In this document: piece by piece, positions 17,476-56,252 of the stretch
How positions within the stretch are numbered: position 1 is the stretch's first letter
How the letters are laid out: every line of letters begins with the position of its first letter
Program-made: the position numbers and the translations under genes
NCBI RefSeq assembly: GCF_900233005.1
Contig: NZ_LT960612.1
Location: forward strand, 434,001 to 498,000
DNA from: Vibrio tapetis subsp. tapetis
GTDB taxonomy: Bacteria > Pseudomonadota > Gammaproteobacteria > Enterobacterales > Vibrionaceae
Direction of reading: 5' to 3'
Length of the DNA stretch: 64,000 bases
The notes under the pieces: model-generated
What the model was told of the DNA's origin: nothing
The model's input: the letters and a program-made list of their open reading frames with translations, nothing else
The model's database searches: none

Positions 17476-17520
17476 GCCAACAATATTTAATTATTATTTT
17501 CGGTCACCAAGGAACGTTTA

Positions 17521-17922: not shown

Positions 17923-17999
17923 GATAAACCTTATTTAATTTAAATAGATACGAAGGAATTCCATATCTAGTACGTCTTGATTTAGGTCTATGCTAATGA

Positions 18000-18245
18000 G
18001 TCTGTAACAAAATGTGTAACCAGTAAGCATTCGAAAAACGAATACACGAGGGTTTTGGCATCACAGCACTCGATCATATGAAGGCTTTTGAATAATACCG
18101 TGACGTATTAGTGAGTCTGCTCATACGGCGCAGACCAAATCGTCGTTTGTGATAACCCTCTATTCGGTGAATACTCACAAGTTTGCTTCTACTAATACTC
18201 CGTTCCTACTATTTATTAGCCTGGCCACTGTGCCAGGCTTTTTTA
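18000..18245 (+). ncRNA. Candidate small RNA ending at an orphan terminator
   Basis: A strong intrinsic terminator, GCCTGGC (18219-18225), a 6-nt loop, GCCAGGC (18232-18238) and T6, points along the plus strand. No plus-strand gene lies upstream of it: the preceding gene is on the minus strand and starts at 17922, and the next plus gene begins at 18386. A transcript of 100-230 nt starting somewhere after 18000 would explain the terminator. A short inverted pair TTCG/CGAA near 18035-18045 is also visible. Exact 5' end, promoter and identity are not determined. Confidence 0.4.
18219..18244 (+). terminator. Strong intrinsic terminator without an upstream gene
   Basis: The stem is 7 bp of GC-rich pairs, extendable by A218-T239, with six Ts after it. 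It precedes the Old-Yellow-Enzyme gene by 140 bp and could also attenuate that gene's leader. Confidence 0.75.
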
Positions 18246-18385
18246 TATTGACCACCTTCAGATAGTTCAAAGTTAGCTAAAAGCCGTTACTTACTGCAGA
18301 GTTTGACGCTAAAAACTCGGAATCGTCGATAAAGTCAGGCATATTGAATCCATCTTACAAAATCATTATAACTGCCAGAGCACAT

Positions 18386-40929: not shown

Positions 40930-42456
40930 TCAAAGATGCTTCAAATAACCTTTATTTTTTGAAAATTCCTTATCGTATAAGCGGTGTAAAGCCGTTTCTC
41001 GTTTATCAACTTTGGCTTCGGTTTTACTGTCAAAAACCATGATGACGTCATCTTTATTCGAGTATGTAGGCCATAGAGGTAAGCTACCACCATTCGGATT
41101 GCCTGTTTTAGCAAAATTAAACCAAGCGCTCGACATCAACTCAGCCAGCTCCCTATCCTCTTGGGTCCAAGGTCTATCGACGGCATCAAGATTGTTAAAA
41201 GCATAAACTAAATCTCCCATATGATAGGCGCCATGCAGTGCGCTAAACTCACCTGGAGGGGCTTTGCTAAATGAATAAAGATAGATAGGCTCGCTACCCG
41301 AATTTTTTTGCTGTTTTGCCCACTTTCGCGTCGCCCAGTGGATTGACTCGGTTTTTGCTGAAACAAAGTTGTCTCTAGCTTGTTCATCTGTCTTGGCTGG
41401 ATTGAGTTTCAGATATTCTTCTGCGTAATCACCAAATAAGCTTTTCGCCCAGAATTCAAGTGTGTCTAGTGTGATTACATCATGCGGTATGGTCGCCGCC
41501 TCCTCTGATGTGCCACCAATGAGCATAGGTACATCCATTTGCTGACCTTTTTCATACGCCTTAGATACGCTCTCCGGTAGTAGCCAACCATCTACAACGG
41601 GCCATGCTTTATAGGGTTTCGCCATCAATTCTTCAGGTGAGAACTTTCTAAGTTGATTAATTGAGCTCACACCTAAACTGTTAGCGTATCGAATACCGGC
41701 TGCTTCGTTGTTTTCAAGCGTTGCATGCCCTTTCATCGCAAAGACTGAGCCACTTTGTGCAATAATTTTGTGAAATAACCCCTTTGCCCTCGGTGATGCA
41801 GACAAAAGGTGCGCGCTAATGGCACCCGCTGACAGCCCAGAAATCGTGACGTTAGTTTTGTCACCACCAAACTGAGTGATATTACGCTGCACCCATTTTA
41901 ACGCTGAAATTTGATCAAGTAGGCCATAATTTCCGGATGTGTTATTAGGCGATTCCTTTGTTAATTCTGGGTGTGCCATAAATCCCAAGACACCAACACG
42001 GTAGTTTATGGTAACCACAACTGCACCTTTTCTTGCAAGTGCTGTCCCATCAATTGAGTCATCGCTGCCCGACCCCCAAACAAAGCCGCCGGGGTAAAAC
42101 CACACCAATACGGGTACTCGTTCATTAGTTCTGACTTCGGGCGCCCATACGTTGAGATATAAACAATCCTCATCATAAGCATGAGGTTTAGGCAAAAATT
42201 CTTTTTGATAGAAAGACCCTTTTTCAGGCAACGTTTGGATACTTGATGCGCCATATTCTTTGGCTCTGCGTACCCCTTGCCACTTTTCAATAGGTTCAGG
42301 TGCAGCCCAACGTAAATTACCGACAGGCGGTGCAGCAAAAGGAATGCCCTTAAAAACGGAGATCTTGGTATTGCGGTTAACGCTTCCCAATAACAGGCCA
42401 CTATCAATTTCAATTTTTTTGTCGTGTACGTCAGAAAAAGCTAAATTTTGATACAT
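40930..42456 (-). CDS. Type-B carboxylesterase, probable cytoplasmic siderophore esterase
   Basis: This 508-residue alpha/beta hydrolase has the type-B signature: KGIPFAAPPVGNLRW near the start, EDCLYLNVW, an oxyanion loop YPGGFVWG, the nucleophile elbow TISGLSAGAIS (Ser209) and the histidine in LHGAYHMGDLVY. There is no signal peptide or lipobox, so it should act in the cytoplasm. It begins 153 bp after the TonB-dependent receptor on the same strand and probably shares its iron-regulated promoter. In this context it could cleave ester bonds of an imported siderophore, a job done by Fes in E. coli through an unrelated family sequence. The role is inferred from position only; detoxification or nutrient hydrolysis is possible. 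Confidence 0.83.
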   Translation of the reverse strand: MYQNLAFSDVHDKKIEIDSGLLLGSVNRNTKISVFKGIPFAAPPVGNLRWAAPEPIEKWQGVRRAKEYGASSIQTLPEKGSFYQKEFLPKPHAYDEDCLYLNVWAPEVRTNERVPVLVWFYPGGFVWGSGSDDSIDGTALARKGAVVVTINYRVGVLGFMAHPELTKESPNNTSGNYGLLDQISALKWVQRNITQFGGDKTNVTISGLSAGAISAHLLSASPRAKGLFHKIIAQSGSVFAMKGHATLENNEAAGIRYANSLGVSSINQLRKFSPEELMAKPYKAWPVVDGWLLPESVSKAYEKGQQMDVPMLIGGTSEEAATIPHDVITLDTLEFWAKSLFGDYAEEYLKLNPAKTDEQARDNFVSAKTESIHWATRKWAKQQKNSGSEPIYLYSFSKAPPGEFSALHGAYHMGDLVYAFNNLDAVDRPWTQEDRELAELMSSAWFNFAKTGNPNGGSLPLWPTYSNKDDVIMVFDSKTEAKVDKRETALHRLYDKEFSKNKGYLKHL

Positions 42457-42609
42457 AAAAGAGCACTCTAAAGTAGCGTAAGAATTGATTTATTTTTAAC
42501 ACCAGAGGTGCGTGGGTTAGGAAGCGACTCAACTCATAAATTGAAAGTACACTAGGGGATCTGAATTCAAAAAGAGGCCAGCATCATCAATGCTGGTCTG
42601 CGTTTAGGT

Positions 42610-44658
42610 TTAGAAGTCAAGCTGTACCAATAAACCCACTGTACGCGACTTTTGTAGAAGCGGAGAGTCTGTATATACCTGTCCTCGGGCTTCGTAGAGG
42701 ATGACGTCGTTCGAATCGAACAGGTTGTTCGCAAATAGCTTGGCATGACCATAGTCGAACACATAGGCAATCGAAGCATTGACCGTTGTATAGCCAGAGA
42801 TCTTTCCAACTTCGTCATTGTCTGTCGTTGAGTAGTAATCACCAACGTACTGAACATTACCATTAAGCTCAAAATCACCTAGCCAGTAGTTCAATCCAGC
42901 GGCTCCTGTCACCCCTGGCGCACGTGCAAATTCTTTGCCCTCATAGACGCTCTTGGCTCTATCACTAATTTTAGTTTTCAATAGGCCCATGTTTGCAAAG
43001 ACACTCAAGTCTTGTGTTGCATACCAATCCATTGTGGCTTCGGCACCATAAGACTTTGCCTCATCCAAGTTCGAGATCTCTGCGCCGGTTAATTGTTGTA
43101 AATTGTCGTAATCGTTATAGAACACATTGGTTGTCAATTGAAGGCTTTGATCCATTAAGCGGTGACGCGTAAAGAATTCATAGTTCCAAACAGATTCCTC
43201 ATCAAACGTGTACGTTTTTCGTGCAATGAAATCAACCCCGGCGCCACCGGACCCAAACCCTTTTGAGGCACTCACACCAAAGGTGTTATTTTCATCTGAG
43301 TTCCACGCTAAGGCGAGCTTAGGTAAGAAGTCGTTATAGGTCTTATCAAGCTTCAGAGCAAACGGACCATCCCCCCCTTGCCTAAAACGTTTCTCACTTT
43401 CATAACGGCCGACTGCCGTGAGTACCAGGCTTGGGGTTAGGTTATAAATGGCTTGTAAGTAAGCCGATTGGGTCTTGGTTTGATCCTCGTATGAACCCAT
43501 GCCATCAATAAAGTCATCTTGGTTGTTACTGAAGTATCTTGCCCCAACTAAAAGATCCAGTTGCTCAGAATCAGAAACATATCTAAGCGTTGGCTCAATA
43601 TGGTATTCCTTACCTTTAATTTCTGCAGTGAATCTATCACCAGTTGGAACAATACGTTTAATTTCAAAGTCGGTATAATTGGTGTTAAATGCTAGCTCAA
43701 CGTTAGATGTGAGACCATAAGTTACGTCCCAAACGTAGCTATTCGAATTGCCTTCAGACACCGGACGCTTCGAAGGGAATGGGGCAAACGGCGAGTCATC
43801 AGGCTCATACTCTCCCTGCGGAGCACGATGGTCATTACGAGAAATGCTCAGTGTTGAAGACAGTTCTGGGATTTTACTTGGCTCGACCAGTAACTTAGCT
43901 CGAATGATATTTGACTCAATTTCTTTGGAATTTCCTGCAGGTGCATAGCTAACCAGTGCTACGGCACTTTCTTGATACTGCCTATCAGCACTGATACGAA
44001 AGGCGACCTGATCATCCACAAGAACATCGTTATATACGATGGCGGTCTGCTGGAAACTATTATTTCCCAAACCGCCTTTAACTGAAAATTGACGCTCAAA
44101 AACGGGCGCGTTAGATTTCAATACGACCGTTCCGGCAATGGAGTTTCGACCTTGGATATAGCTTTGCGGGCCAAGATAAACCTCTGCCTGCTGTACATCC
44201 CACATTGAGTTTTGCCCATAGGCGAGTTCATTGTAGGTCAGTGCTCGTCCATCTAAAGAGACATTTAGCCTAGGCTTTGAACCGGAAATGAAAGCAGCGG
44301 CACCCACGCCAGGGCCAGAACCATCAACCCCTCGTACTGTCGCAATCTGGTTGCCATAGCCAGTATCAACAATGTTTGGGCTCATTCTCAGTAAGTCCTG
44401 AGTCGTATTAATGCCCTTCTCCTGCATTGAGTCTTGGTCATAAACGACAACACTTGCGCTGGTTTCTTGGAGTGAACGTTCAGATTTGTCACCGTATACC
44501 ACCATAGAAGGAACGACACCTTCTTTGGTCTCTTCAGCGGCAACGGCAAGCCCCGCCTGCATACCAAAACATGCAACGGCAATTGATGCTGCGAGGGTAC
44601 TGATAGGGTGTCTGTTCGGTTGGCTGTTTGCTAAGCGCCCCATGCGCAATAATTCCAT
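42610..44658 (-). CDS. TonB-dependent siderophore receptor
   Basis: The 682-residue protein has an extended signal peptide (ending near GLAVAAEE), a TonB-box-like segment (VPSMVVYGD), a plug domain (TSASVVVYDQDSMQEKGINT, LLRMSPNI, ATVRGVDGSG, VEVYLGPQSYIQGRNSIAGT) and a 22-strand-type barrel ending with a terminal Phe. It would bind a ferric siderophore at the cell surface and import it with TonB energy. Its own promoter region (44659-45050) carries a Fur-box-like sequence and the island's 21-bp element. The adjoining FepBDGC-like importer suggests a catechol siderophore. Confidence 0.88.
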   Translation of the reverse strand: MELLRMGRLANSQPNRHPISTLAASIAVACFGMQAGLAVAAEETKEGVVPSMVVYGDKSERSLQETSASVVVYDQDSMQEKGINTTQDLLRMSPNIVDTGYGNQIATVRGVDGSGPGVGAAAFISGSKPRLNVSLDGRALTYNELAYGQNSMWDVQQAEVYLGPQSYIQGRNSIAGTVVLKSNAPVFERQFSVKGGLGNNSFQQTAIVYNDVLVDDQVAFRISADRQYQESAVALVSYAPAGNSKEIESNIIRAKLLVEPSKIPELSSTLSISRNDHRAPQGEYEPDDSPFAPFPSKRPVSEGNSNSYVWDVTYGLTSNVELAFNTNYTDFEIKRIVPTGDRFTAEIKGKEYHIEPTLRYVSDSEQLDLLVGARYFSNNQDDFIDGMGSYEDQTKTQSAYLQAIYNLTPSLVLTAVGRYESEKRFRQGGDGPFALKLDKTYNDFLPKLALAWNSDENNTFGVSASKGFGSGGAGVDFIARKTYTFDEESVWNYEFFTRHRLMDQSLQLTTNVFYNDYDNLQQLTGAEISNLDEAKSYGAEATMDWYATQDLSVFANMGLLKTKISDRAKSVYEGKEFARAPGVTGAAGLNYWLGDFELNGNVQYVGDYYSTTDNDEVGKISGYTTVNASIAYVFDYGHAKLFANNLFDSNDVILYEARGQVYTDSPLLQKSRTVGLLVQLDF

Positions 44659-44905
44659 TTGGTCATTCTCCTAGAGTTTGCCGATCGCCGTATTGCAAGC
44701 CCTTGTCGCTTGCATTACCTCGATTGTCAGTTCGTGGTGGATACGGCTTCGCACTGCTTTGTTAAGTTTCGACACGTATGCCACGTGGCAATAGTAATAA
44801 GGTCATGCTCTATATAAGTACATTTAGCCCAGATATTGGCTTACTTTTAGTAGCGCATGTCCTTGACTCGTATGGCCTAGTTATCGCGTCATATGCATTA
44901 TGCCT

Positions 44906-44922
44906 TTGATAACCATTCTCAT
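44906..44922. promoter_or_regulatory. Fur-box-like palindrome upstream of the receptor gene
   Basis: TTGATAACCATTCTCAT matches the perfect 17-bp palindrome at 51409-51425 at 14 of 17 positions and resembles the Fur consensus. It lies about 250 bp before the receptor ATG, so the transcript would have a long leader or a nearer promoter may exist. Confidence 0.6.
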
Positions 44923-44957
44923 TTACTGCACGTATATTACTAAGGGTTATCAGTACA

Positions 44958-44978
44958 TACTTCTGAATTTGTGCTTTT
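44958..44978. promoter_or_regulatory. Shared 21-bp element, copy 1 (AraC activator site candidate)
   Basis: TACTTCTGAATTTGTGCTTT plus one more T is identical to 51462-51482. It begins 52 bp from the Fur-like site, on the side away from the receptor gene. In both copies the order from the minus-strand gene is gene, Fur box, element, as expected for an activator binding upstream of a promoter. Confidence 0.65.
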
Positions 44979-45050
44979 CGATCGGGCTAGTTATTCGGGT
45001 GTCGGAGATTGCAGCAATCGCGAGATAAGCGAAACCTGTTATCGAGTCAA

Positions 45051-45884
45051 CTACTGCTCACACACATCAGGTATCAAAGGTGCTTTGGGCACAACCATCG
45101 GGGAACCAGTCACTGGGTCTGGCATTATTAGGCTATCTAAACCGAACACTTGCTTAACCAAGGACTCGGTCATCAGTTCGTTTGGGGGGCCTTGAGCAAC
45201 AATTTTCCCACCACTTAATACAATCAGGTTGTCGGCGTAACGGCAGGCTTGATTAAGATCATGCAGTACTGCAACAACGGTATTGCCCAGTTTTTGCTTG
45301 AGCTTTTTAAAGAGTTCAAGCAATTCAAGTTGGTGGGAAATATCTAAATAGGTCGTTGGCTCATCTAACATTAGAATTGGCGTTTGCTGTGCCAGTAGCA
45401 TCGCAATCCAGACCCGCTGCAATTGCCCACCAGACAGGGCGTCAACTGTATGATCGGCAAACGCTTCGATACGTGTAACATGCATCGCTTGCTTTACTGC
45501 GTGTTCGTCTTCTATGCTCCATTGGCTAAATAACCCTTGATGAGCATGGCGACCACGTGCAACTAACTCTGCTACCGTAACCCGTTCTGGCGTAGAAGAA
45601 CTTTGGGGCAGAAAGCCTAACAATTTCGCGATCTCTTTGCTTGGTATGCGCTGGATCTGTTCACCATTTAGGATTACATGCCCCTGCTTTGGCTTTAGCA
45701 ATCGGCATAGGCATTTTAGAAGCGTCGATTTTCCGCAGCCATTTGGCCCAACGATGACCGTTAATTTCCCACTCGGTATCGTGACATCGAGCGCCTCACA
45801 TATGATTTTTGAGCCATATCCAAGCGTTAGATTTTCAGCGCTGAGTGTTGGATGTCCATCCATTTCGGAATCAAAATTAGTCAT
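45051..45884 (-). CDS. fepC: Ferric-siderophore ABC transporter ATPase, FepC-like
   Basis: The ATPase has Walker A VGPNGCGKSTLLKCL, Q-loop LGFLPQSS, signature LSGGQLQRVWIAMLLAQ, Walker B ILMLDEPTTYLD and H-loop VLHDLNQ. These belong to the FecE/FepC group that powers iron-siderophore and B12 import. The ATG at 45884 lies 14 nt past the preceding permease stop and gives a normal length; the frame extends upstream inside the permease gene. It is the last gene of the acylase-fepB-fepD-fepG-fepC operon. Confidence 0.85.
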   Translation of the reverse strand: MTNFDSEMDGHPTLSAENLTLGYGSKIICEALDVTIPSGKLTVIVGPNGCGKSTLLKCLCRLLKPKQGHVILNGEQIQRIPSKEIAKLLGFLPQSSSTPERVTVAELVARGRHAHQGLFSQWSIEDEHAVKQAMHVTRIEAFADHTVDALSGGQLQRVWIAMLLAQQTPILMLDEPTTYLDISHQLELLELFKKLKQKLGNTVVAVLHDLNQACRYADNLIVLSGGKIVAQGPPNELMTESLVKQVFGLDSLIMPDPVTGSPMVVPKAPLIPDVCEQ

Positions 45885-45897
45885 AATAAGTACTGAG

Positions 45898-46956
45898 TTA
45901 TCGGCTTCTAGTAATAAGCCAAAGTAAATAAAACCCACCAATAATTCCGCACACTCTCCCTATAGGTAAGTTCACATCAATGGGCATTAGTTGCGTAATA
46001 AGGTCGGCGATAAGCAGTATCAGCGCACCCATCACTGCAGATGAAATAATGGGTAAGTTTGCCGTGTTTCTTAACCGAATCACCAGTTGCGGGGCCGCCA
46101 AGGCGATAAAAGCAATAGGCCCAGTAGATGCAGTTACCAACGCTGCGAGTGCGACACCTATTAGCGTCATAATCAAGCGCAGTTTTAACACCCGAATCCC
46201 TATCGACTGGGCTCGTAATTCCCCAAGCTCTAGCCCAGATATTGCCGCGGAAAATAGCTTGACTAACGGCAGAAGCAAAACGCACCCTATTAAAACGGGA
46301 AGGGCGTGATCCCATGTTCGGGCATGCAGCGACCCAGCCAGCCATAGATTGCCTGTAATAGCGCTATCTATATCTCCCTTTACCAGTAACAGGCCGTTAA
46401 ATGCGCTGAGTATTGCACCAACACCAATACCGGTTAATACCAGATTTTGACGCTTGATGGTGCCGCGTTGATAAGATAGAGCCAGTACTACCGCAGCGGT
46501 GGCAAGCCCGCCGACAATCGCGCCAATAGCGACTTCAATAGAACCACCAGAAAAATATATGATCTGAATTAGCGCCCCAGCAGCAGCTCCTGAAGTAAAC
46601 CCTATAATATCGGGAGAGCCTAATGGATTGCGGGAGATAGACTGGAAGACCGCACCAGAAACTCCTAGCGCTGCACCAGCTGACACAGCAGTAATGACCC
46701 TAGGCAGACGGATATCCCATAATATTTTGGCTTGAAATCCCGCTTCAGCGCGCTCTGAAGACAGCAGCATCTCCAAAACTTGATGAATAGTGATGGGTAA
46801 TTTACCCACACTCAGGGCGAACAGAGTAAGAACGCATAAACTCAAAACCATGATTGCTGCGATCGATACATTCTTTATATTCACCACGACGGACACTGAC
46901 TTGCATCGCAAGGCATACAAATGTCGAGAAGAAAGCACTTTAGTAACGGTCAACAC
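45898..46956 (-). CDS. fepG: Ferric-siderophore permease, FepG-like
   Basis: This inner-membrane permease of the FecCD family has about nine or ten helices. The conserved segment LGVSGAVFQSISRNPLGSPD (with IIGFTSGA after it) is close to the FepG form of the motif, and TGPIAFIALAAPQLV and an end LPIGRVCGIIGGFYLL also fit. It starts at a GTG directly after the fepD-like stop codon. An internal start near MVLSLCVLTL would remove an odd basic leader. It pairs with the FepD-like permease to form the catechol-siderophore channel. Confidence 0.83.
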   Translation of the reverse strand: MLTVTKVLSSRHLYALRCKSVSVVVNIKNVSIAAIMVLSLCVLTLFALSVGKLPITIHQVLEMLLSSERAEAGFQAKILWDIRLPRVITAVSAGAALGVSGAVFQSISRNPLGSPDIIGFTSGAAAGALIQIIYFSGGSIEVAIGAIVGGLATAAVVLALSYQRGTIKRQNLVLTGIGVGAILSAFNGLLLVKGDIDSAITGNLWLAGSLHARTWDHALPVLIGCVLLLPLVKLFSAAISGLELGELRAQSIGIRVLKLRLIMTLIGVALAALVTASTGPIAFIALAAPQLVIRLRNTANLPIISSAVMGALILLIADLITQLMPIDVNLPIGRVCGIIGGFYLLWLITRSR

Positions 46957-46957
46957 A

Positions 46958-47971
46958 CTAACGCCTAATCAAGTACAAGAAAAATGGCCCACCAATTAAT
47001 GCCACCATGATCCCGGCACTTATTTCATTTGGGTAACCGACGATACGCCCCAATATATCGGCAATGAGGAGCAATAACGCTGAAATCGACATAGAGGCAG
47101 GGAGGAGCTTTTTATGATCGGTGCCAACGATTAACTTGGTGATATGGGGGGCGGTCAAACCAAGAAAGCTAATTGGACCCGCAGCTGCCGTCGCGCTACC
47201 CGCCAATATTGTCACAACAATAAATGAACCACCCCAGATCAATGCCGGATTGACTCCAAGTGTCAGACCTTTTTCAAAACCCAGAACAATTGAATCTAGC
47301 GGCTTAGCTAATGCCAACGATAACAACAGCCCAACAGCAATAAATAGTGAAACAGGATACAACACATCATAGCCACGCCCTTGTAACGACCCGACCGACC
47401 AATGGCGATACTGGTGAAATACGTCTTGATGGCTATTAATGGTGATTAGGCTGGTAATAGCCAAGAGCATAATCGTCAACGCCGTACCTGATAAGACGAC
47501 TCTCACTGCATCGACCTTTCGCCCTTTTCCAGCAATAAGGTAAACCATAAACCCTGTCATCGCCGCGCCTAACAATCCTAACCACACATAACTTGATAGG
47601 CTCGTCATTCCAAATATGGAAATACCCAGCACGATCATAGTCATCGCTCCTGCATTCACACCAAGGATCCCAGGCTCAGCGAGTGGGTTGCGAGTGAGCG
47701 CTTGCATTATGATACCCGATACACCGAGCGCCGCGCCCACTATCACAGCCAGCAAGGTCCTTGGAATTCGCAAATGGTGAACGATGAGATGCTGAGAGTT
47801 GTTGGCATCAAAATGAAACAGAGCTTCAAGGGTTGTTGCCACGGCAATATCTCGGGAGCCAATGAATATGCTGATTAGCATTAAAGTTGGCAAACTGATA
47901 AGGGTAGCAATCAACACAATGTTGACTTGTCGCTTATTTCTTCGAGCAATAGGATGAGCTAATTGAGTCAT
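46958..47971 (-). CDS. fepD: Ferric-siderophore permease, FepD-like
   Basis: The 337-residue FecCD-family permease has the FepD-style motif LGVSGIIMQALTRNPLAEPG followed by ILGVNAGA, then SATAAAGPISFLGLTAPHIT and a C-terminal LIADILGRIVGYPNEISAGI. Nine or ten helices are expected. It follows the binding-protein gene by 27 bp and abuts the FepG-like gene. Together they import a ferric catechol complex across the inner membrane. Confidence 0.85.
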   Translation of the reverse strand: MTQLAHPIARRNKRQVNIVLIATLISLPTLMLISIFIGSRDIAVATTLEALFHFDANNSQHLIVHHLRIPRTLLAVIVGAALGVSGIIMQALTRNPLAEPGILGVNAGAMTMIVLGISIFGMTSLSSYVWLGLLGAAMTGFMVYLIAGKGRKVDAVRVVLSGTALTIMLLAITSLITINSHQDVFHQYRHWSVGSLQGRGYDVLYPVSLFIAVGLLLSLALAKPLDSIVLGFEKGLTLGVNPALIWGGSFIVVTILAGSATAAAGPISFLGLTAPHITKLIVGTDHKKLLPASMSISALLLLIADILGRIVGYPNEISAGIMVALIGGPFFLYLIRR

Positions 47972-47998
47972 TTCAATTGGAATGCCGCTTCTGACACT

Positions 47999-48922
47999 TT
48001 AGCGACCAAATCGCGCAAGCATATTTTTGATGATCTCTCTCGAGCTATAGAGATCCACTCGAAAGGTGTTCTCCCCTAGCCCATACACTTGATGGTTTTC
48101 TACCGATGGTAAGTTTTTTAGTACCACGTCGGACATCAAACCCTGAGCGCGCTCATCAGAAGCCTCAAGCAAAAAGCTCATTTCGGCCCTAAGCTCGGTC
48201 AATTTCTCATAGTTCACTAACACAAAATCGTTGTGAAAAGTTGGGCCCGAATGCCAATTACGATCCGGTGGTTCGAGTTCAAATCCCAACGCCGACAATA
48301 ATAACGCATGCGCCCCTTCTGATGTTGCCACAGCACTGGTCACTCCCGGCCCATGGTAGCTAATAACGTTGGCTCTGCCCTCTGGCAAGTTTAATTGAAC
48401 CTTTGCATCCTTAACCAACTGTTCAAAATCGGCGACCGTTTTTTCAACATGCTTTTCATTGCCCAATGCTTCACCCAGTTGCTTGGCCAGTTCCTGCCAC
48501 GATTGAATGCTGTAATCGACCACAATGGTTGGGGCAATAGAACGAAGCTCTTTAACCTGATTAAGCGCAGAGTCTGCACCAGATTTAGATACCACAATTA
48601 AATCTGGTTGCTCAAGGTAGGCAGATTCCAGATCCACACTACCAGCAGGCCACAATTTCTTCACCGAACGTTGATTGGCAACCGACTGCCATTGTCCAAA
48701 AAATCCCCCAGTCGTATCTGTCGCTGTTGCGACTAATGGTGCATCAATAGCAAGTAAAGTGCCTGTAACAGTCACTGAGGTCGATAGCACCCTAACGGGT
48801 TTAGCTGGAATAATTGTCGTGCTTCCATCGGCATTAACAAAGTTCTTGGGCCATGCTGACGCAGTTGCTGAAGCGGTTACTGTGAGTACAGCGACCAAAG
48901 TTAAGATTATCTTTTTCATCAA
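47999..48922 (-). CDS. fepB: Periplasmic ferric-siderophore binding protein, FepB-like
   Basis: A signal peptide (residues 2-23) precedes a class III solute-binding fold. The text STSVTVTGTLLAIDAPLVAT closely resembles E. coli FepB (enterobactin binding), as do DSALNQVKELRSIAPTIVVD, SWQELAKQLGEALG and the C-terminal VYGLGENTFRVDLYSSREII. These support a tricatecholate ligand more than a hydroxamate or B12. It would pass the siderophore to the FepD/G permease. It lies 86 bp after the acylase gene in the same operon. Confidence 0.85.
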   Translation of the reverse strand: MMKKIILTLVAVLTVTASATASAWPKNFVNADGSTTIIPAKPVRVLSTSVTVTGTLLAIDAPLVATATDTTGGFFGQWQSVANQRSVKKLWPAGSVDLESAYLEQPDLIVVSKSGADSALNQVKELRSIAPTIVVDYSIQSWQELAKQLGEALGNEKHVEKTVADFEQLVKDAKVQLNLPEGRANVISYHGPGVTSAVATSEGAHALLLSALGFELEPPDRNWHSGPTFHNDFVLVNYEKLTELRAEMSFLLEASDERAQGLMSDVVLKNLPSVENHQVYGLGENTFRVDLYSSREIIKNMLARFGR

Positions 48923-49008
48923 TAATTAAGACTCATAAATATGTGTTTAATAACAAAGATTTAAGTTCAATAGATTACAAAACTAAATCAGCACGGGTAA
49001 TCGTAATT

Positions 49009-51288
49009 TTATCGGTAATCTTGGTGCTCTCCCAATGCGGGGGGGCTAAAAGGCATTGAGTACAGTTTTTTATCAAGGAACATCTGCAACTGACATGTGC
49101 GTGCTTTTGAATCAACCCCATCGCGCTGACCGTCTGCCAATAACACCTGCGGGCAAATCATGCCATGTTGCCATTGAGTTAACTGAAGATAAGCAGTGCC
49201 AAACAAGATGTAGTCAAAACCATCATGGGTTAACTCGGCGGGCATTTCTCCATTGAGAATACCTTGCTCATAAGATCCGCCATGCATTGCGACGTGTTGG
49301 TTTTCCGCCGCCTGATAGAGAACACTCCCCCACGCAGTATCCAAGGCAAAGTTAAGTTGCTTTAACTCTGCAATGGATTGCTCCAGTGCAGCCAATATCA
49401 CTTTCTGACTTTGCGGAGTGGTTGAGATCTCTGAATCCACTTCTGGGTCACCAAAGCCTGTCACCTTAACCAGCTTGGCCTGAACAAGCTTGCTCCACAG
49501 CTGATGAAACAATAGCGCCCCACGACTGTCTGCGTTGTTCCTTCTATCCCAGTTTGCTAATACCTGAAATGCTTGCTTGGCTGTCGTTGAGCAATCATGT
49601 GACTCTAGAGTCAGGATCCAATCAAGAAACGTCTCAGCAGCATAGTTTCGGTTATCAAACACGACCTCTAGCGCCTGCAGAGCATTTATCTTGCCGTTCA
49701 AGCTGATCTCCTGCATTCGCTTATACGACATTATCAGGCGAGGATCATAGTCGAGCCTAGCCGCTGCCAATGTACGCTGCTGTTTGTGTTGACCAAATAC
49801 CGATGGATAATCAGGCTGCTGCTGACCAAATTCGCTGTACTTATAGCTATTGTTGGTATTATGAATGATGCCACGAGAGATGATGTTGGGATAAAATGAT
49901 GTAGCGGCTTGCAGTGGTCTCTGGTTTTGATCACGGAACGAATTTTTTGTTTGGCTACCATCCAAGACGTTAAACGCAACGCCTTCAACCCCTAAATGAG
50001 CGCTTGCCATCGCTTCGTCAGTGATCGGTGGAACGTTACCCGCTACCACATACCCCACATCACCATGCTTGTCTGCGATAACAAGCTGACACAGCACTCC
50101 GCGGTACTGCTCTATCTGCTCGATAAACTCTCTGGTTGAACGTGCCTTCGCCGCCGATAAAAACTGATCCAAGCCCTTAGCATTTCTCTCACCGGGATTA
50201 GTAATTGCATACCAACCCGGTGGCTTATTTGGCGTTCGAGGAAGCTGGAAAAGGGTCCCTAAATGTGACTGTGCAAACTGATAGGATTGAATGGTAATAT
50301 CACCTGATTCTTGCAAGGTTTCAATCTCGATGCTGCGTATAGTCGCAGATTGGTAGTCACCATCCACCAAATACTTAATCGAGTCTTGTTCCAGCTTAAC
50401 GTCCATAAGCTGCATAACGTATGGCGTTACGGTTGCTGCATCCAAGATGCTCCAAGAGACATCGGCATTGTACCCCGTCAGAGGTAACGGAAAGCCTAAG
50501 AAAGTGGTGCCGGCTACATCAAGTACTCCCGGAATCGTGAGGTGGCACTGGTGCATGTAAATACGTAATTGATGCGAGTTTCTTTGCCAAGCTGAATGAG
50601 GATTACCAAGCAAAATGGCACTCCCACCTTCAACTACATCGCCCCCGTAGGCCCACGCATTGCTACCAAAGCCCCCTTCGACTTCAACTGGCGTGCGATG
50701 GAACGAAACCCTATCGGTCGGAGTGCTTGTGTTAATGCAATTGGCTGTTGCAACTAGATGTGGGCCAATTTCAATCAACTCCTTCATTACCCCAAAGCGC
50801 ATGGTAAAGCGTACAACGTCGTCGACTTCAAATCGAACCATAGGTTCTTGGCCAACGATCTGCTGATATTGTGTCTCTGATAGATGATCAACAAAGTAAT
50901 TTAGGCCATTTACATAACCAAAGATATAATCTTGAGTCTCTCTATTTAGCCGTTCAAACTCTTCTTTTACCCATTCGTTAGGAACCCTGAGCTTGAACAT
51001 TAAATCAGAATTGAGGTTGGTCGTTTTGAGGAATCCTAAGGTCGAGAAGGCTTCTGGCCCATAATATCTAGAGCGCTGACCACGCATTGCAATCGCCTGC
51101 CCTACGAGTTCAATCAGCCTATCTCGGGCATGTGCATAACCATAACCAAACCCTAAACTTTCATAGTTATCTGCTCGAATACGAGGGACATCTTTGTCGT
51201 TCCAAACTATCTCTACTTGGTCAAATTTTCCTTTTTTTTCATAGGTTAGTGTTTTGCACTCAGGAACAGATTGAGAAAACTGGGTCAT
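49009..51288 (-). CDS. Penicillin-acylase-family N-terminal-nucleophile amidase, no visible signal peptide
   Basis: The 759-residue precursor has the family layout: an alpha chain with ARDRLIELVGQAIAMRGQRS, a spacer, then the self-cleavage site GGFGSNAWAYGG, where Ser209 becomes the N-terminal nucleophile of the beta chain. The beta chain contains GNPHSAWQRNSHQL and TTFLGFPLPLTGYNADVSWS. Family members hydrolyse amide-linked acyl groups (penicillins, N-acyl homoserine lactones, acylated siderophore precursors by PvdQ). Most are periplasmic with signal peptides; this one begins MTQFSQSVPECKTLTYEKKG with no hydrophobic stretch, so it should be cytoplasmic. It is the first gene of the fep-like operon, behind a Fur box. 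I infer that it cuts an amide bond of the imported siderophore. Confidence 0.82.
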   Translation of the reverse strand: MTQFSQSVPECKTLTYEKKGKFDQVEIVWNDKDVPRIRADNYESLGFGYGYAHARDRLIELVGQAIAMRGQRSRYYGPEAFSTLGFLKTTNLNSDLMFKLRVPNEWVKEEFERLNRETQDYIFGYVNGLNYFVDHLSETQYQQIVGQEPMVRFEVDDVVRFTMRFGVMKELIEIGPHLVATANCINTSTPTDRVSFHRTPVEVEGGFGSNAWAYGGDVVEGGSAILLGNPHSAWQRNSHQLRIYMHQCHLTIPGVLDVAGTTFLGFPLPLTGYNADVSWSILDAATVTPYVMQLMDVKLEQDSIKYLVDGDYQSATIRSIEIETLQESGDITIQSYQFAQSHLGTLFQLPRTPNKPPGWYAITNPGERNAKGLDQFLSAAKARSTREFIEQIEQYRGVLCQLVIADKHGDVGYVVAGNVPPITDEAMASAHLGVEGVAFNVLDGSQTKNSFRDQNQRPLQAATSFYPNIISRGIIHNTNNSYKYSEFGQQQPDYPSVFGQHKQQRTLAAARLDYDPRLIMSYKRMQEISLNGKINALQALEVVFDNRNYAAETFLDWILTLESHDCSTTAKQAFQVLANWDRRNNADSRGALLFHQLWSKLVQAKLVKVTGFGDPEVDSEISTTPQSQKVILAALEQSIAELKQLNFALDTAWGSVLYQAAENQHVAMHGGSYEQGILNGEMPAELTHDGFDYILFGTAYLQLTQWQHGMICPQVLLADGQRDGVDSKARTCQLQMFLDKKLYSMPFSPPALGEHQDYR

Positions 51289-51408
51289 GCTGTTTTTTTA
51301 TTCCTAATACTTACGGTTACCTGACACTCGCCCAGCAACTGGTTTAAACAACAAGCACATCCATTTATTAATTTCAAAGCGGCTTCCCCAACGTCCTTCC
51401 TTTTTGAT

Positions 51409-51425
51409 ATGATAATCATTATCAT
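51409..51425. promoter_or_regulatory. Fur box between acylase operon and AraC gene
   Basis: ATGATAATCATTATCAT is a perfect 17-bp palindrome and matches the core of the Fur consensus. It lies 121 bp upstream of the acylase ATG and 73 bp upstream of the AraC ATG, so ferric Fur could silence both divergent units. Confidence 0.85.
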
Positions 51426-51461
51426 TACCAAGCTGTGATAGTACGATATTTGATATCTCTT

Positions 51462-51482
51462 TACTTCTGAATTTGTGCTTTT
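51462..51482. promoter_or_regulatory. Shared 21-bp element, copy 2 (AraC activator site candidate)
   Basis: This copy is identical to 44958-44978 over 21 bp. It starts 53 bp from the Fur palindrome and 36 bp before the AraC-type ATG. It could mediate both activation of the acylase-fep operon and autoregulation of the regulator gene. Confidence 0.65.
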
Positions 51483-51497
51483 TCTTTCCAAAATTAA

Positions 51498-52424
51498 ATG
51501 GCAGAGAATACTAGGAGGAAGTATCTAGTCGCACAGAAACAAATTACTGATATACGAAACGACCTTTATATGGAAATTGCAAATAAAACCATTAACAATG
51601 CCATTGAGTACATTTTCAACAATCTAACCTGTGACCTAGGTGTAGAAGAAGTTGCAAGTCATTGCAATTTGTCAAAATTTCACTTTAGTCGGTTATTTAA
51701 GAAATCTACTGGCGAGAGTATTTACTCGTTAATCAAACGCCTGAAGATGGAAGACAGTGCTATCGTGCTAGGTACTAATACAAGCAATAGTATTACTAAT
51801 ATCGGCTTAGGCTACGGATACAGCTCATCCAACTACAGCTCAGCATTTACTAAGCACCACGGGATCTCTCCAGCAAAATTTAGAAAACTCAAGAAAGAAA
51901 AGAAATTTGACTTGGTAAGCCATGTCGACGGGAAAGAAATTCTATACCAAAATTTTGAATACTATAATAAAAGTGTGGTAATTAGAGACCTTGAGGATAT
52001 ACGAGTACTTTACCGACGCTACATTGGAGACTACGACGATCTTATCCATCATTGGCCAAAGTTCATTGATGAACATAGTAACCTAGTCCATGACCATTCA
52101 CAGTTAATTGATGTATGTTATAGCGACCCAAACATCACAGATAGACATCGTTGTATCTATGATATTTGTATAAAAATAGATTCAGATATTCTCTTACCGC
52201 CACATATCACTACCGATACCCGTATTATTAAAGGTGGGAAGTTTGCATCTTATTCAGCTAAAGGCAGCCCAAGTGTCATTTCCCATGATTATAAAGGTGT
52301 ATTTAATGTCTGGTTGCCTAACAGCGGTTATAGCTTGGACAATAGAATTCGGTTTGATTCATATAAATTGCTTAAACCAGACGATCAATATTTCGAAGTT
52401 GATATTAATCTCCCAATTCAGTAG
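51498..52424 (+). CDS. AraC-family regulator with GyrI-like ligand domain
   Basis: The HTH domain lies near the N-terminus (residues 35-135: LGVEEVASHCNLSKFHFSRL with FKKSTGES, then NIGLGYGYSSSNYSSAFTKH with HGISPAKFRKL). The C-terminal half (from about residue 150: KSVVIRDLEDIRVLYRRYIG and following) resembles GyrI-like small-molecule-binding domains, as in Rob-type proteins. It is divergent from the acylase-fep operon and shares its Fur box. AraC regulators in siderophore loci usually sense the ferric siderophore and activate receptor and transport genes. It lies inside the island, near the right repeat. Confidence 0.83.
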   Translation: MAENTRRKYLVAQKQITDIRNDLYMEIANKTINNAIEYIFNNLTCDLGVEEVASHCNLSKFHFSRLFKKSTGESIYSLIKRLKMEDSAIVLGTNTSNSITNIGLGYGYSSSNYSSAFTKHHGISPAKFRKLKKEKKFDLVSHVDGKEILYQNFEYYNKSVVIRDLEDIRVLYRRYIGDYDDLIHHWPKFIDEHSNLVHDHSQLIDVCYSDPNITDRHRCIYDICIKIDSDILLPPHITTDTRIIKGGKFASYSAKGSPSVISHDYKGVFNVWLPNSGYSLDNRIRFDSYKLLKPDDQYFEVDINLPIQ

Positions 52425-52699: not shown

Positions 52700-52956
52700 T
52701 TTGAACACAAGAATATGGAATAAACCTAAAGACAGCATGAATAAAAGAAGGATACCCAAGAGACTTACGTCACTTGGGTATTGGATTTAAAAGTAGTAAT
52801 TCACACCGGTTGAAATGTAGGTCGATTTCACATCATGGAAGTTGATGTCTGAATCTTCATTGCTGATCCCACCGATCACACTCACACTGACATCTTCCCA
52901 GCCAAAAGGTTGTTCGTAGGCATACAGCCCGAATAAATTAGTAATCGTGGTATCTT
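52500..52956. repeat. Long direct repeat, copy 2 (right border of siderophore island)
   Basis: Partner of 40321-40777, same orientation. At this end the DUF2860 gene is whole and the VOC gene is a fragment; at the left end it is the reverse. That is the outcome expected if a segment was inserted between the two genes by recombination within their 3' ends. Confidence 0.9.
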
Positions 52957-53815
52957 GTTTCTTATCAAATACTGGGTTGTTGGCGTCAAAACCGCGTTTG
53001 GCAAAGCCTGCATGAGTAACAAAATTGTGCTTTCCAAAGGACATATGCAGCCCAAGCTCTCCACCAAGCTCTTTAAAGCTATGGGCTTTACCATCTGCGT
53101 CTCGAATGGTGTATCTCACTGCAGGTAACAGGGCGATGTTGTCGCTAATCGGCACGACGGTTTCAACCCCCACCCTTTGATATAGGCTGTTTCTTTCTAG
53201 CATTTTCATGTTCTCAGCCGACAGGTTCTGCCCTTTACCTAGCTTGTCGTTTTCCACTTCATATTGTACGAATGCGTATCGAATGGTTAGCGGCAAAATC
53301 AATTCAGGCGAATAAGCAATCCGGCCACCATGTGCATTTGACCCGGTTTTTTTACGAGCAGAGCCGACCAAATAAGCATCTTCCCACACTTCACTGACCC
53401 CAGGAACTTTTGGGAAATACGCGGCGTTCAATAAACCTACGCCTTCCATATAGTGATTCACCCCAATTTCGGCTTGGAACTGTTCACTGGCGACCTGATC
53501 TTCACTTTGTCCTAAGTAAAACTGGGTGTTTCCGCTATCTAAGGTGTACTCAACTCGGACAAAAGGGAACAGGCCAAAACCAGAGGTTGATTTACCACTG
53601 CTCTGCAATGAATCGGTGGTTTTATTATCATCATCAGTATTGAGCTGAGATTGTTCACTACCCACGCCAACGTTGGCCGATAACACAAATTGCCAGCCAG
53701 GTTCAAAAGTGGATTCTTGCTCTGTGGATTCTTGCTCTGCGGTTTCTTCGTTTGCTGCCAGTGGAGCACTCAGTATTAAGCAGGTTAATCCAACGGTTCT
53801 GTTCAGATATTTCAT
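52787..53815 (-). CDS. DUF2860 family outer-membrane protein
   Basis: The 342-residue protein has a Sec signal peptide (ending APLAANEE), an acidic spacer with a repeated EQEST unit, and a beta-barrel-like body ending in YISTGVNYYF with the C-terminal aromatic residue needed for barrel assembly. Conserved segments include EPGWQFVLSANVGVGSEQSQ, GLFPFVRVEYTLDSGNTQFY and QAEIGVNHYMEG. DUF2860 proteins are mostly known from vibrios and have no assigned function. It follows a RstAB-like two-component pair by 111 bp on the same strand, which may control it. A C-terminal fragment of a diverged copy is at 40608-40777. Confidence 0.85.
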   Translation of the reverse strand: MKYLNRTVGLTCLILSAPLAANEETAEQESTEQESTFEPGWQFVLSANVGVGSEQSQLNTDDDNKTTDSLQSSGKSTSGFGLFPFVRVEYTLDSGNTQFYLGQSEDQVASEQFQAEIGVNHYMEGVGLLNAAYFPKVPGVSEVWEDAYLVGSARKKTGSNAHGGRIAYSPELILPLTIRYAFVQYEVENDKLGKGQNLSAENMKMLERNSLYQRVGVETVVPISDNIALLPAVRYTIRDADGKAHSFKELGGELGLHMSFGKHNFVTHAGFAKRGFDANNPVFDKKQDTTITNLFGLYAYEQPFGWEDVSVSVIGGISNEDSDINFHDVKSTYISTGVNYYF

Positions 53816-53926
53816 CCCTGTACCTTTTGTTCATTGAGAGAGTCGGCTTAATATGTTTGATTTCAAGCGACAGTTCCATGCCAGAATAAAGACTAACTGT
53901 GACGGTTTGTGACGGCAGGCATACGG

Positions 53927-55522
53927 TTAACTGCCTGTGCGCATCACATCCCAACATAAGGTGAACTTAGCGCCCCCCAGCGCAGATTGCGAAACGAATG
54001 CATCCCCTTCATGCCAAATGGCAATCTGCTTCACTATCGCTAAACCTAATCCGTACCCTGTTGTGGTATTTCTTTCTTCATTATCGACCTGAGTAAAGGG
54101 ATCAAAAATCGATTCCCATAAGTCTTGTGGAATGCCGATACCATCATCTTCTATGATTAGAACCCACCCTTTAGTATGGCGCTCAAAAGTAACGTCGACC
54201 CTGCTTTTAGCGTATCTGGCAGCGTTTGAAAGTAAGTTATTCATCGCTCGGATCATGGCTCTTTGGTCGACCATCACTTCTTCTGATTCAATTAATGTGG
54301 CGCAATTAAACTCCACAGACAACGATGGGTGCTCTAAATGAAAATGGTTTATTTCAGAGCGTAATATGGGCTGTAATACACATGGCACGATTTGGTTAGC
54401 ATTAGGCGCACTGCGAGAATAGCGAGAAAGGATCAAGGTTTGATTGATGAGATGGTCGAGGTCATCCATGCTTTTATCTACCGATCTGTTGTATTTTTCT
54501 TTGTTCTCTTTGGATATTTCATTGTCCTTCAGCATCTCTAAAGCAAATCGCAGCCTATAGAGTGGCGTTCTTAAGTCATGTGCAATTGCATTGGTTAGGT
54601 CACGATGCCCAAGTACCAGCTTTTCGACGTTATTGGCCATTTGGTTAAATGATGTGCCCAGTTGAGCAACGACGGACCATTTAGACGTTTTTGCACGAGC
54701 TTGCAGATCACCGTTACCATATTGGTTTGTTGTCGAGACGAGGCGTTTTAAATCGCGCCATAAAGGAATGGCCCATAACATCATGACTGCCGCAATGCAC
54801 AGCATGATCCCCATAACAATCGCCCCCATGAACAGTATTTGGACAGACGTCGATTGATCATCGATTACCCGTAAAATATCCTTATCTTCAATGAGAGCAA
54901 AGAGGATCTGATCTTCGTTTTCGTTAATTACAGACGCAATTTCTCCGGCCAGAAGCAGAGATTTCTGATCTTCGGGCAGTTCTATCGAATCAAAGTGTTC
55001 AATGGTGGCGGCGACTGGCATTGATAAGGTGATTTTATTCAATTGAACACTGCGCTGATCTCGGGGTAATTTTTTCATTTCACGCACGAGTAAGAATATC
55101 GGCCCGCTGGCCTGCAATTTTCCATAGTCATCACTCGCTAGATCCATCGCGAGATATATCGCTTGTTCACTTTGCTTTATGCCCATAACCAAAGCTGAAG
55201 GATCGGCAATATGGTAGGCCATTTCTCCTTCTTTGATGCTTGTTAAGTTCGCAGGACTTAACGGGAGTTCTGCTATATCGACAAGTTTGAGTTGCATACC
55301 AAAATGAGGCTGTAGGTTTTGTATGGTTTGTTGCCAATCTTGTGGAGGCTGGGAAGTTAAGTCTTCATGGATTGTTCGTAACGTCGGCCCGTAAAGCTCT
55401 TGATAGATATCTTTGGAAATTATCTCGCTGATTTTGGTGATAGGGTTAGCCGTAATGGGGTTAAAGAAAAACGCGATGAGTATCAGTATCACCAACCAAA
55501 GAAGAGAAAATGCCTTAATCAT
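53927..55522 (-). CDS. Sensor histidine kinase, RstB-like
   Basis: This kinase has a first helix (AFSLLWLVILILIAFFF), a long periplasmic domain of about 220 residues, and a second helix near residue 260 (FMGAIVMGIMLCIAAVMMLW). A HAMP domain, the HisKA box AIAHDLRTPLYRLRFALEML and an HATPase domain with NNLLSNAARYAKSR and GYGLGLAIVKQIA follow. The linker after the second helix and the H-box resemble RstB. It is about 100 residues longer than E. coli RstB because of the periplasmic domain. The ATG at 55522 is preferred, 10 nt after the regulator stop; the frame upstream lies within the regulator gene. Confidence 0.83.
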   Translation of the reverse strand: MIKAFSLLWLVILILIAFFFNPITANPITKISEIISKDIYQELYGPTLRTIHEDLTSQPPQDWQQTIQNLQPHFGMQLKLVDIAELPLSPANLTSIKEGEMAYHIADPSALVMGIKQSEQAIYLAMDLASDDYGKLQASGPIFLLVREMKKLPRDQRSVQLNKITLSMPVAATIEHFDSIELPEDQKSLLLAGEIASVINENEDQILFALIEDKDILRVIDDQSTSVQILFMGAIVMGIMLCIAAVMMLWAIPLWRDLKRLVSTTNQYGNGDLQARAKTSKWSVVAQLGTSFNQMANNVEKLVLGHRDLTNAIAHDLRTPLYRLRFALEMLKDNEISKENKEKYNRSVDKSMDDLDHLINQTLILSRYSRSAPNANQIVPCVLQPILRSEINHFHLEHPSLSVEFNCATLIESEEVMVDQRAMIRAMNNLLSNAARYAKSRVDVTFERHTKGWVLIIEDDGIGIPQDLWESIFDPFTQVDNEERNTTTGYGLGLAIVKQIAIWHEGDAFVSQSALGGAKFTLCWDVMRTGS

Positions 55523-55532
55523 GAGTGCCCCA

Positions 55533-56252
55533 TTAGCGCTTGTTTGGACAAAGTTGATAGCCTTTACCACGAATCGTTTTGATGATTTGTGGTTTGTTAG
55601 GATCATCTTGAAGGGTTCTTCTTAAACGAGATATCCGTCGGTCTATTGATCGATCCAACCCATCGTACTCATACCCTCTGATCTGCTGAACAATATCGTC
55701 TCTCGATACGACTTGTCCTGAGTTCTTGGCAAGCAAATGCAACAGCTCAAACTCGGCGGTAGTTAACCGTATTTCATTGTTATTTAGCGAAACCCGTCGT
55801 TTCTGCAAGTCTACTTTCAATGCACCGAATTCGAATATTGATGAGGGATCTGAAGATGTGCTGATGCGTTGATTTCTTCTTAGGAGCGCGCGTATTCTAG
55901 ATAAAAGCAGCCTTGGTTGTACTTGCTTTACGATGTAATCGTCGGCACCTAACTCCAACCCCATCATTTGGTCAATGTCGTCATCTAGGGCGGTTTGCAT
56001 CAGGATCATACCGAGATAATCGGCTCTCACTGCGCGACAAACATCCATACCTGACTGGCCAGGAAGCATGACATCTAATATCACTAAGTCCGGTTGTTCC
56101 TCGACAATTCTGTTCGCAGCCTCTAAGCCGTTACTAACGTGCGTGACGTTAAATTCATAATTTCTCAGGTAATCGCAAATGAGCTCAGCCAGTTCCATGT
56201 CATCTTCTACGAGCATTAATCTGTAATGGCTAGCAGGGTTCATTAGGTACAT
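55533..56252 (-). CDS. Response regulator, RstA-like (OmpR family)
   Basis: The 239-residue protein has a receiver with VEDDMELAELICDYL, phosphorylation Asp in LVILDVMLPGQSG and Lys in DDYIVKQVQPRLLLSRIRAL, and a winged helix with LTTAEFELLHLLAKNSGQVV and GYEYDGLDRSIDRRISRLRR. The last motif and the length match RstA. An ideal Shine-Dalgarno (aaggagagg) precedes the ATG. It is followed by its kinase and then the DUF2860 gene. Confidence 0.87.
   Translation of the reverse strand: MYLMNPASHYRLMLVEDDMELAELICDYLRNYEFNVTHVSNGLEAANRIVEEQPDLVILDVMLPGQSGMDVCRAVRADYLGMILMQTALDDDIDQMMGLELGADDYIVKQVQPRLLLSRIRALLRRNQRISTSSDPSSIFEFGALKVDLQKRRVSLNNNEIRLTTAEFELLHLLAKNSGQVVSRDDIVQQIRGYEYDGLDRSIDRRISRLRRTLQDDPNKPQIIKTIRGKGYQLCPNKR

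Follow-up and report, generated by a model that had tools for sequence, protein, structure and literature searches.

How is iron taken from a catechol siderophore that has been imported whole and has no ester bonds to cut? Iron release by cutting of the siderophore is known for ester-bonded catecholates; polyamine catecholates such as vibriobactin and fluvibactin are ester-free and are thought to need reduction. The question is raised by a stretch of 64,000 nucleotides of Vibrio tapetis subsp. tapetis DNA (C2:434001-498000 of a 5.7 Mb genome in 3 contigs; hereafter the window), in which a penicillin-acylase-family amidase is encoded together with a FepBDGC-type importer, a TonB-dependent receptor, an AraC-family regulator and a carboxylesterase. 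We read these genes, with a probability of roughly 55%, as a Fur-controlled uptake set for a polyamine-type catechol siderophore, probably a foreign one, in which the amidase is the dedicated cytoplasmic breakdown enzyme.

Family and compartment of the amidase

The amidase combines a PF01804 domain with the predicted alpha-beta-beta-alpha fold of the S45 family. Its nucleophile, Ser209 (codon 50662-50664), aligns with Ser-beta1 of PvdQ, and Ser209, His231 (His-beta23) and Asn479 (Asn-beta269) are conserved in all 30 aligned rows of the subfamily. The gene is under purifying selection, with dN of 0.06 and 0.10 and dS of 0.62 and 1.15 in two comparisons, the window against loci L102 and L103. 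At positions 49009-49050, the edge of the Pfam domain, the end of the reading frame is frameshifted relative to the otherwise 98-99% identical protein P0001, through real variation or a sequencing slip; intact relatives exist.

PvdQ deacylates a pyoverdine precursor in the periplasm. The window amidase shares 23% identity with it, scores 255.9 against the NCBIfam PvdQ model (cut-off 950) and belongs to a subfamily that a long branch separates from PvdQ in the tree. The residues that we take to line the fatty-acid pocket of PvdQ (Phe-beta24, Leu-alpha146 and others) are replaced in 29-30 of the 30 subfamily rows: beta24 is Ser and beta162 is Phe in 30/30 and alpha146 is Phe in 29/30, with alpha146 and beta162 also varying in rows outside the subfamily. 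We rejected identity with PvdQ itself on score, pocket and leader.

The initial annotation had placed the nucleophile at Ser209 in both the amidase and the carboxylesterase, and had read both proteins as lacking a signal peptide. Alignment and the GLSAG motif of the esterase bear out the first statement; for the second, neither open frame can be extended to a leader, as judged by eye and by hydrophobicity count. The leaderless clade that holds the amidase comprises 22 rows (support 100/100; the starts of P0030 and P0032 are uncertain) and is nested among relatives with leaders or lipoprotein boxes, P0036 being a second, separate leaderless row. The tree has 59 rows in all, including PvdQ, the Variovorax relative and the window, and 57 of the 73 proteins labelled for leaders were either placed in it or left out by sampling; the labels were set by hydrophobicity and by eye rather than with a signal-peptide program. 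The Parahaliea amidase carries a lipoprotein leader, and the Fes encoded next to it is apparently exported too (leader by eye).

The solved structures nearest to the amidase include the N-acyl-homoserine lactone (AHL) acylases MacQ and PvdQ, and the protein might be a quorum-quenching AHL acylase or a scavenger of amides in general, with siderophore genes as no more than chance neighbours. The best match in the plasmid collection (33.4%; Variovorax plasmid L001, 11857-14193) is near an amino-acid racemase gene, with no siderophore gene among the annotated names within 26 kb; since this relative stands apart from annotated siderophore genes, the wider family has other jobs. The long branch and remodelled pocket of the subfamily, together with the Fur-like sites and the repeated linkage to catechol uptake described below, make a quorum-quenching or scavenging role highly improbable for the window protein.

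Linkage to catechol uptake and Fur-like sites

Genes for the AraC regulator, amidase, FepBDGC and receptor are common to all seven of the nearest loci (the window, L102, L103, L104, L025, L034 and L035), and among the 15 Vibrio loci with at least 58% identity, 12 have the amidase together with FepBDGC and a receptor, a count that leaves out the 38% fragment L101. This linkage extends to five of the eight loci at 58-60% identity. Three of these, L105, L106 and L028, encode a Fes-type esterase as well, with a linked reductase read in the first two; the other two, L027 and L032, contain catechol synthesis genes. The amidases of L026, L029 and L107 stand alone, with Fur-like sites of 14-15/19. Outside Vibrio, loci at 53-54% contain a periplasmic binding protein (L030), Fes (L031), a receptor (L033) or AraC and a receptor (L038). 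In the draft loci L034 (V. aestivus) and L035 (V. mexicanus) several genes of the set are broken, the amidase at about the same place in both, through decay or sequencing error.

A tblastn screen found siderophore genes in 9 of the 12 genome_contigs loci at at least 53% identity, or in 10 counting the binding protein of L030, which was seen only by a Pfam scan confined to the nearer loci. Among 65 distant amidase loci, which include short contigs and the fragment match L101, the same screen gave weak receptor matches in 6, carboxylesterase-like matches in 3 (L042, L054 and L092) and no match to FepB/D/G, Fes or SIP.

The window's best Fur-like site lies in the 209 bases that separate araC from the amidase; sites were scored as a plain count of matches to a 19-base consensus. 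The corresponding amidase fronts of L102, L104 and L025 score 17, 18 and 19 of 19, and a site of at least 14/19 precedes 14 of the 19 subfamily amidases, among them the stand-alone ones of L107, L026 and L029. Subfamily amidases scoring below 14 are those of L103, L027, L032, L033 and L038, with L103 having a 17/19 site further upstream on the araC side. None of the four more distant loci scanned (4 of 65) has a site of at least 14/19. As a control, 32 of 346 other open reading frame (ORF) fronts in the same loci score at least 14 and 14 score at least 15; all of these 14 belong to araC, amidase fragments, the receptor, Fes or the gene transcribed away from the amidase on the opposite strand.

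Receptor, importer and candidate siderophore

FepB exceeds its NCBIfam cut-off (PRK10957, 341.7 bits versus 205), and with two FecCD permeases and a FepC-like ATPase it makes up a ferric-catecholate ABC importer of the FepBDGC type; the best NCBIfam models for FepC, FepD and FepG are enterobactin or ferric-siderophore models, each match lying below the E. coli equivalog cut-off. The genome has 18 FecCD matches, and we rejected the idea that this is the host's sole importer of its type; in eight fetched loci, one of them the window's own, no other permease exceeds 35% identity to the FepD and FepG of the window.

The receptor scores 224.4 bits against TIGR01783 (cut-off 223.5). Its closest functionally named relatives are the vulnibactin receptors VvuA of V. 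vulnificus (43%); it is equally close (43%) to the receptor of a V. cincinnatiensis cluster, 42-44% identical to receptors of Serratia and Photorhabdus and 41% identical to a 687-residue V. cholerae receptor that is presumably ViuA. With VvuA as the closest named protein and a relative in a polyamine-catechol-type cluster, it belongs to the vibriobactin/vulnibactin receptor family. Vibriobactin, vulnibactin and fluvibactin are ester-free dihydroxybenzoate (DHB) amides of polyamines.

The host has an enterobactin-type cluster of its own (C2:1415301-1428446), in which EntA and EntE exceed their NCBIfam cut-offs and an isochorismate synthase exceeds that of its subfamily; EntB and a CirA-like receptor, of which part of the sequence was scanned, are also encoded there. 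Its EntF-like C-A-T-TE synthetase (1323 residues, 860 bits, under the EntF cut-off of 2400) has the specificity residues DVWHFSLID, matching by eye what we take to be the EntF serine code. Because the window receptor is of the VvuA family while the host makes an enterobactin-type siderophore, the window set resembles an uptake route for a polyamine catecholate of foreign origin, with the host's own product also a possible substrate.

The V. cincinnatiensis locus (L027, corresponding to genome G130) points to the same class of compound. There the amidase lies between a PPTase gene and a VibB-like gene of a synthesis cluster that also encodes EntE, EntC, EntA, a 1487-residue VibF-like non-ribosomal peptide synthetase (NRPS), a 449-residue VibH-like protein, a 974-residue carrier-condensation protein, FepB, FepD, FepG, FepC and the related receptor; the VibH-like and VibF-like labels rest on size and similarity to the host EntF rather than on a Pfam scan. 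The V. fujianensis neighbourhood (L032) resembles this one, and its amidase and an NRPS-like gene are each split in two frames, by decay or sequencing error. Of the two amide-linked groups that had been suggested as substrates, the DHB groups of polyamine catechols fit both the receptor family and this VibH/VibF-type cluster. The acyl tail of amphi-enterobactin fits less well: the PvdQ-pocket residues are replaced, and no V. harveyi or V. campbellii name occurs among the 120 listed of 2282 amidase homologues, only some of which are named.

Distribution among Vibrio genomes

We surveyed drawn species representatives, some of them incomplete, without correction for kinship. The amidase subfamily occurs in 13 of 148 Vibrio genomes and, at E 1e-100, in none of 368 other gammaproteobacterial genomes drawn. 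EntE over its cut-off is present in 6 of the 13 amidase genomes versus 23 of the 135 others (Fisher p 0.022), and Fes (PF11806) in 5/13 versus 25/135 (p 0.14); on the Fes counts we rejected the amidase as a general Fes replacement. Either EntE or Fes is found in 9/13 versus 34/135 (p 0.002).

Seven of the 13 amidase genomes have no EntE over the cut-off of 723.55; in five the best listed match has 184-226 bits or an E value no better than 1e-50, and two of the seven are drafts of 150-210 contigs. Because of these seven, the amidase appears to function in siderophore use rather than synthesis and not simply as a maturase. A role in biosynthetic maturation or precursor editing, after the manner of PvdQ or the Streptomyces protein DesG (PMC12161575), would suit the protein family and the position of the gene inside the V. 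cincinnatiensis synthesis cluster. We consider it very unlikely, as the window set consists of uptake genes only and, in G046 and G056 (V. furnissii), the amidase and EntE share a contig but are widely separated.

The single most informative result, though a small one, comes from the nine Vibrio genomes with stand-alone VibH-like genes (open frames of 442-486 residues). In six of them (G009, G037, G050, G075, G135 and G144) a SIP (ViuB-like) gene lies no more than 0.5 kb from EntE and the amidase is missing, whereas in the other three (G046, G056 and G130) the amidase is present and the sole SIP gene of the genome is on another contig. Amidase and EntE-linked reductase are thus exchanged (3/3 versus 0/6).

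This exchange bears on a further explanation, namely that ViuB-like reduction frees the iron and the amidase then cuts the iron-free siderophore, which would stop re-chelation and recover DHB and polyamine. SIP-family reductases are present in all 13 amidase genomes (123 of 148 Vibrio overall), a reductase gene is linked with the amidase in L104, where it adjoins araC, and in L105 and L106, and the host, itself the producer of a DHB siderophore, could reuse the DHB. Such a clean-up role is nevertheless unlikely: among the VibH-like genomes the amidase and the EntE-linked reductase exclude each other, and the seven genomes lacking EntE over the cut-off could not reuse DHB in that way.

Several observations count against our preferred reading of the amidase as the breakdown enzyme that gives access to the iron. 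Its association with EntE is weak. Another release route exists, since SIP-family reductases occur in every amidase genome, and in L028/G095 a reductase gene lies about 11 kb away, in addition to the three linked cases. The VibH comparison covers nine genomes, of which G046 and G056 are close relatives (77% match, like neighbourhoods); the VibH-like match of G075 has one internal stop, and G009, G135 and G144, which have no amidase, also have Fes matches. No siderophore gene was recognised near the amidases of L026, L029 and L107. Both substrate and activity are deduced from sequence, and the fit of a large ferric complex in a buried N-terminal nucleophile (Ntn) hydrolase active site is questionable.

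The carboxylesterase

The carboxylesterase has a PF00135 domain, the nucleophile Ser209 within GLSAG, Glu318/319 as acid candidates and His408/412 as histidine candidates, of which His412 is invariant in a 17-row alignment. It is similar in sequence to solved esterases and, with this GxSxG serine and these candidates, is of type B; it has no PF11806 or PF00756 match at E 0.001 that would make it Fes-like. It is leaderless in the nearest Vibrio relatives; leaders are present on P0128-P0130 (46-54% identity) and absent from P0132 (45-47%). A longer L102 frame with a leader-like stretch was rejected as a sign of export, the stretch being the receptor's terminator hairpin read in frame, where the window frame has stops.

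The initial annotation had proposed that the amidase and this esterase work as a pair in place of Fes, the amidase removing an acyl tail or DHB groups and the esterase opening the lactone. Both enzymes are leaderless, the esterase gene shows purifying selection (dN 0.06 and 0.11, dS 0.75 and 0.79, window versus L102 and L103), and the host makes an enterobactin-type siderophore with no PF11806 match in its genome, esterases with PF00756 alone not having been searched. Fes, an esterase of a different family, is encoded close to the amidase in L105, L106, L028 and Parahaliea.

The pairing did not hold up as a system. Among the seven nearest loci the esterase is present in five, two of which have it broken (L034 and L035), and it is absent from beside the receptor in L104 and L025, the position to which that search was limited. 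Its front has no Fur-like site of at least 14/19, and it follows a terminator-like hairpin, a class of site with 14 occurrences in the 13-kb region versus 12.3 in shuffles when scored by consensus match only. Elsewhere it is a Fes-type esterase or a ViuB-like reductase that lies near the amidase, and genomes G080 and G118 have Fes at another place although they also carry the esterase. Coupled with a receptor family that points to ester-free polyamine siderophores and with the changed acyl pocket, these findings render joint action of the two enzymes on a lactone siderophore distinctly unlikely. The carboxylesterase is an optional add-on to the gene set, not a fixed partner of the amidase.

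Proposed mechanism

In the breakdown that we favour, the ferric complex would enter through the VvuA-family receptor and would be carried intact into the cytoplasm by FepB, FepD, FepG and FepC, both steps by homology with known systems. The amidase precursor, whose fold and catalytic residues were described above, would cleave itself between Gly208 and Ser209. Most likely the mature enzyme would then hydrolyse 2,3-dihydroxybenzoyl-amide bonds of the imported polyamine catecholate, in its ferric or its iron-free form, destroying the hexadentate ligand and leaving the iron reducible and usable. The freed DHB could conceivably feed the host enterobactin-type pathway, and the probable signal for the AraC-GyrI protein is the siderophore itself, once imported, or one of its breakdown products. 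That the complex is imported whole and its amide bonds are then cut in the cytoplasm had already been put forward in the initial annotation, and this stands as the best reading of the Fur-like sites, the catechol-importer linkage, the leaderless clade and the seven genomes lacking EntE over the cut-off.

Features of the window and other loci of the host

All eight genes first named for this region are present where they had been placed and in the families assigned, as judged by ORF, Pfam and NCBIfam analysis (Table 1). On the minus strand the order is amidase, fepB, fepD, fepG, fepC, receptor, esterase, with araC divergent from the amidase. The called frame of fepC overlaps fepG, and the 275-residue length of its relatives puts the probable true start near 45878.

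Table 1. Positions in the window of the genes and candidate sites of the siderophore gene set
Feature	Position	Strand	Basis and remarks
AraC-family regulator with C-terminal GyrI-like small-molecule-binding domain	51498..52424	+	Pfam PF06445, PF00165, PF12833
Fur-box-like site	51411..51429		between araC and amidase; 17/19 versus 19-base consensus
S45 penicillin-acylase-family amidase (Ntn-hydrolase, PvdQ fold)	49009..51288	-	PF01804, 281.6 bits; leaderless
FepB/ViuP-type ferric-catecholate binding protein	47999..48922	-	PRK10957; leader peptide by eye
FepD-type FecCD permease	46958..47971	-	Pfam and NCBIfam
FepG-type FecCD permease	45898..46956	-	Pfam and NCBIfam
FepC-type ABC ATPase	45051..45941	-	Pfam and NCBIfam; called ORF start overlaps fepG
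Fur-like site, weaker	44908..44926		upstream of TonB receptor; 14/19
TonB-dependent receptor, vibriobactin/vulnibactin receptor family	42610..44658	-	VvuA 43%
Terminator-like hairpin and T run	42578..42596	-	between receptor and esterase
Type-B carboxylesterase	40930..42456	-	PF00135, 362.6 bits; leaderless; facultative member of the set

The region had been described as an island. Its occurrence is patchy, with the set in 13 of 148 Vibrio genomes and flanks that vary between relatives, whereas a foreign base composition was rejected, the GC content being 0.43-0.48 at the set versus 0.38-0.48 over the window. ARAGORN found no tRNA gene in the window. Beside the set, at 52787-56252, lie a DUF2860 protein gene and a histidine-kinase/response-regulator-like pair, for which no counterpart was matched at that place in the nearest relatives.

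Elsewhere in the host, two proteins that look similar to each other by eye are encoded among the enterobactin synthesis genes (C2:1416180-1417277 and C2:1425292-1426311; L111:8181-9278 and 17293-18312), one of which has what looks like a lipoprotein leader and matches ChaN/Tiki weakly (27.1 bits versus a cut-off of 27.7). Another large NRPS cluster, with six matches to condensation domains, occupies C2:229047-263109 (L108-L110), and a SIP reductase gene beside a separate FecCD permease pair at C2:723674-729090 is probably another siderophore-use locus.

Relation to known systems and significance

In the open-access literature, with subscription literature mostly outside the search, we found no description of a cytoplasmic siderophore amidase of this kind. 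Closest in arrangement are Fes, IroD and BesA, which act on enterobactin, salmochelin and bacillibactin and are likewise cytoplasmic hydrolases beside a Fep-type importer that dismantle an imported catechol siderophore (PMC11800396). Fes, an alpha/beta hydrolase with PF11806 and PF00756, cuts esters, whereas the constant enzyme of the window set is an Ntn amidase. The ViuB/VuuB route serves polyamine catecholates through the same receptor family and the ViuPDGC importers, but there iron is released by reduction with the ligand left uncut; a reductase of this kind is linked to EntE in the six VibH-type genomes without the amidase. PvdQ, like MacQ and other AHL acylases, differs from the window protein in being exported, in its fatty-acyl pocket and in its biosynthetic role.

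Two further systems can be compared by description only. DesG, encoded in the Streptomyces desJGH genes, is likewise an iron-controlled penicillin-amidase-family protein tied to a siderophore, but it acts in desferrioxamine B synthesis, where a hydroxamate precursor is its proposed substrate, and involves no catechol (PMC12161575). The amide hydrolases of amphiphilic siderophores in Marinobacter, as cited in PMC11800396, also cleave siderophore amides, but remove the acyl tail and keep the chelating groups. The latter source further states that siderophore modification for iron release is seen in catecholates only and that an unidentified enzyme cuts the amphibactin amide backbone. In PMC13180887, on the fluvibactin cluster, the main text as available to us does not contain 'acylase', and 'amidase' occurs in it once, in the title of a cited work on a different V. 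cholerae gene.

A tentative further proposal is that the amidase founds a third route of catechol iron release, in which a cytoplasmic Ntn-hydrolase, descended from exported acylases that lost their leader, cuts the dihydroxybenzoyl-amide bonds of ferric polyamine catecholates and replaces the EntE-linked ViuB reductase in Vibrio. If the reading is right, the amidase would be the amide-cutting counterpart of the ester-cutting Fes, DHB would be returned to the cell, and an enzyme for cutting catechol amides would become available. Amidase against linked ViuB offers a clear and directly testable comparison within one genus, and a dedicated amidase would explain how some Vibrio use polyamine catecholates, including the siderophores of their neighbours.

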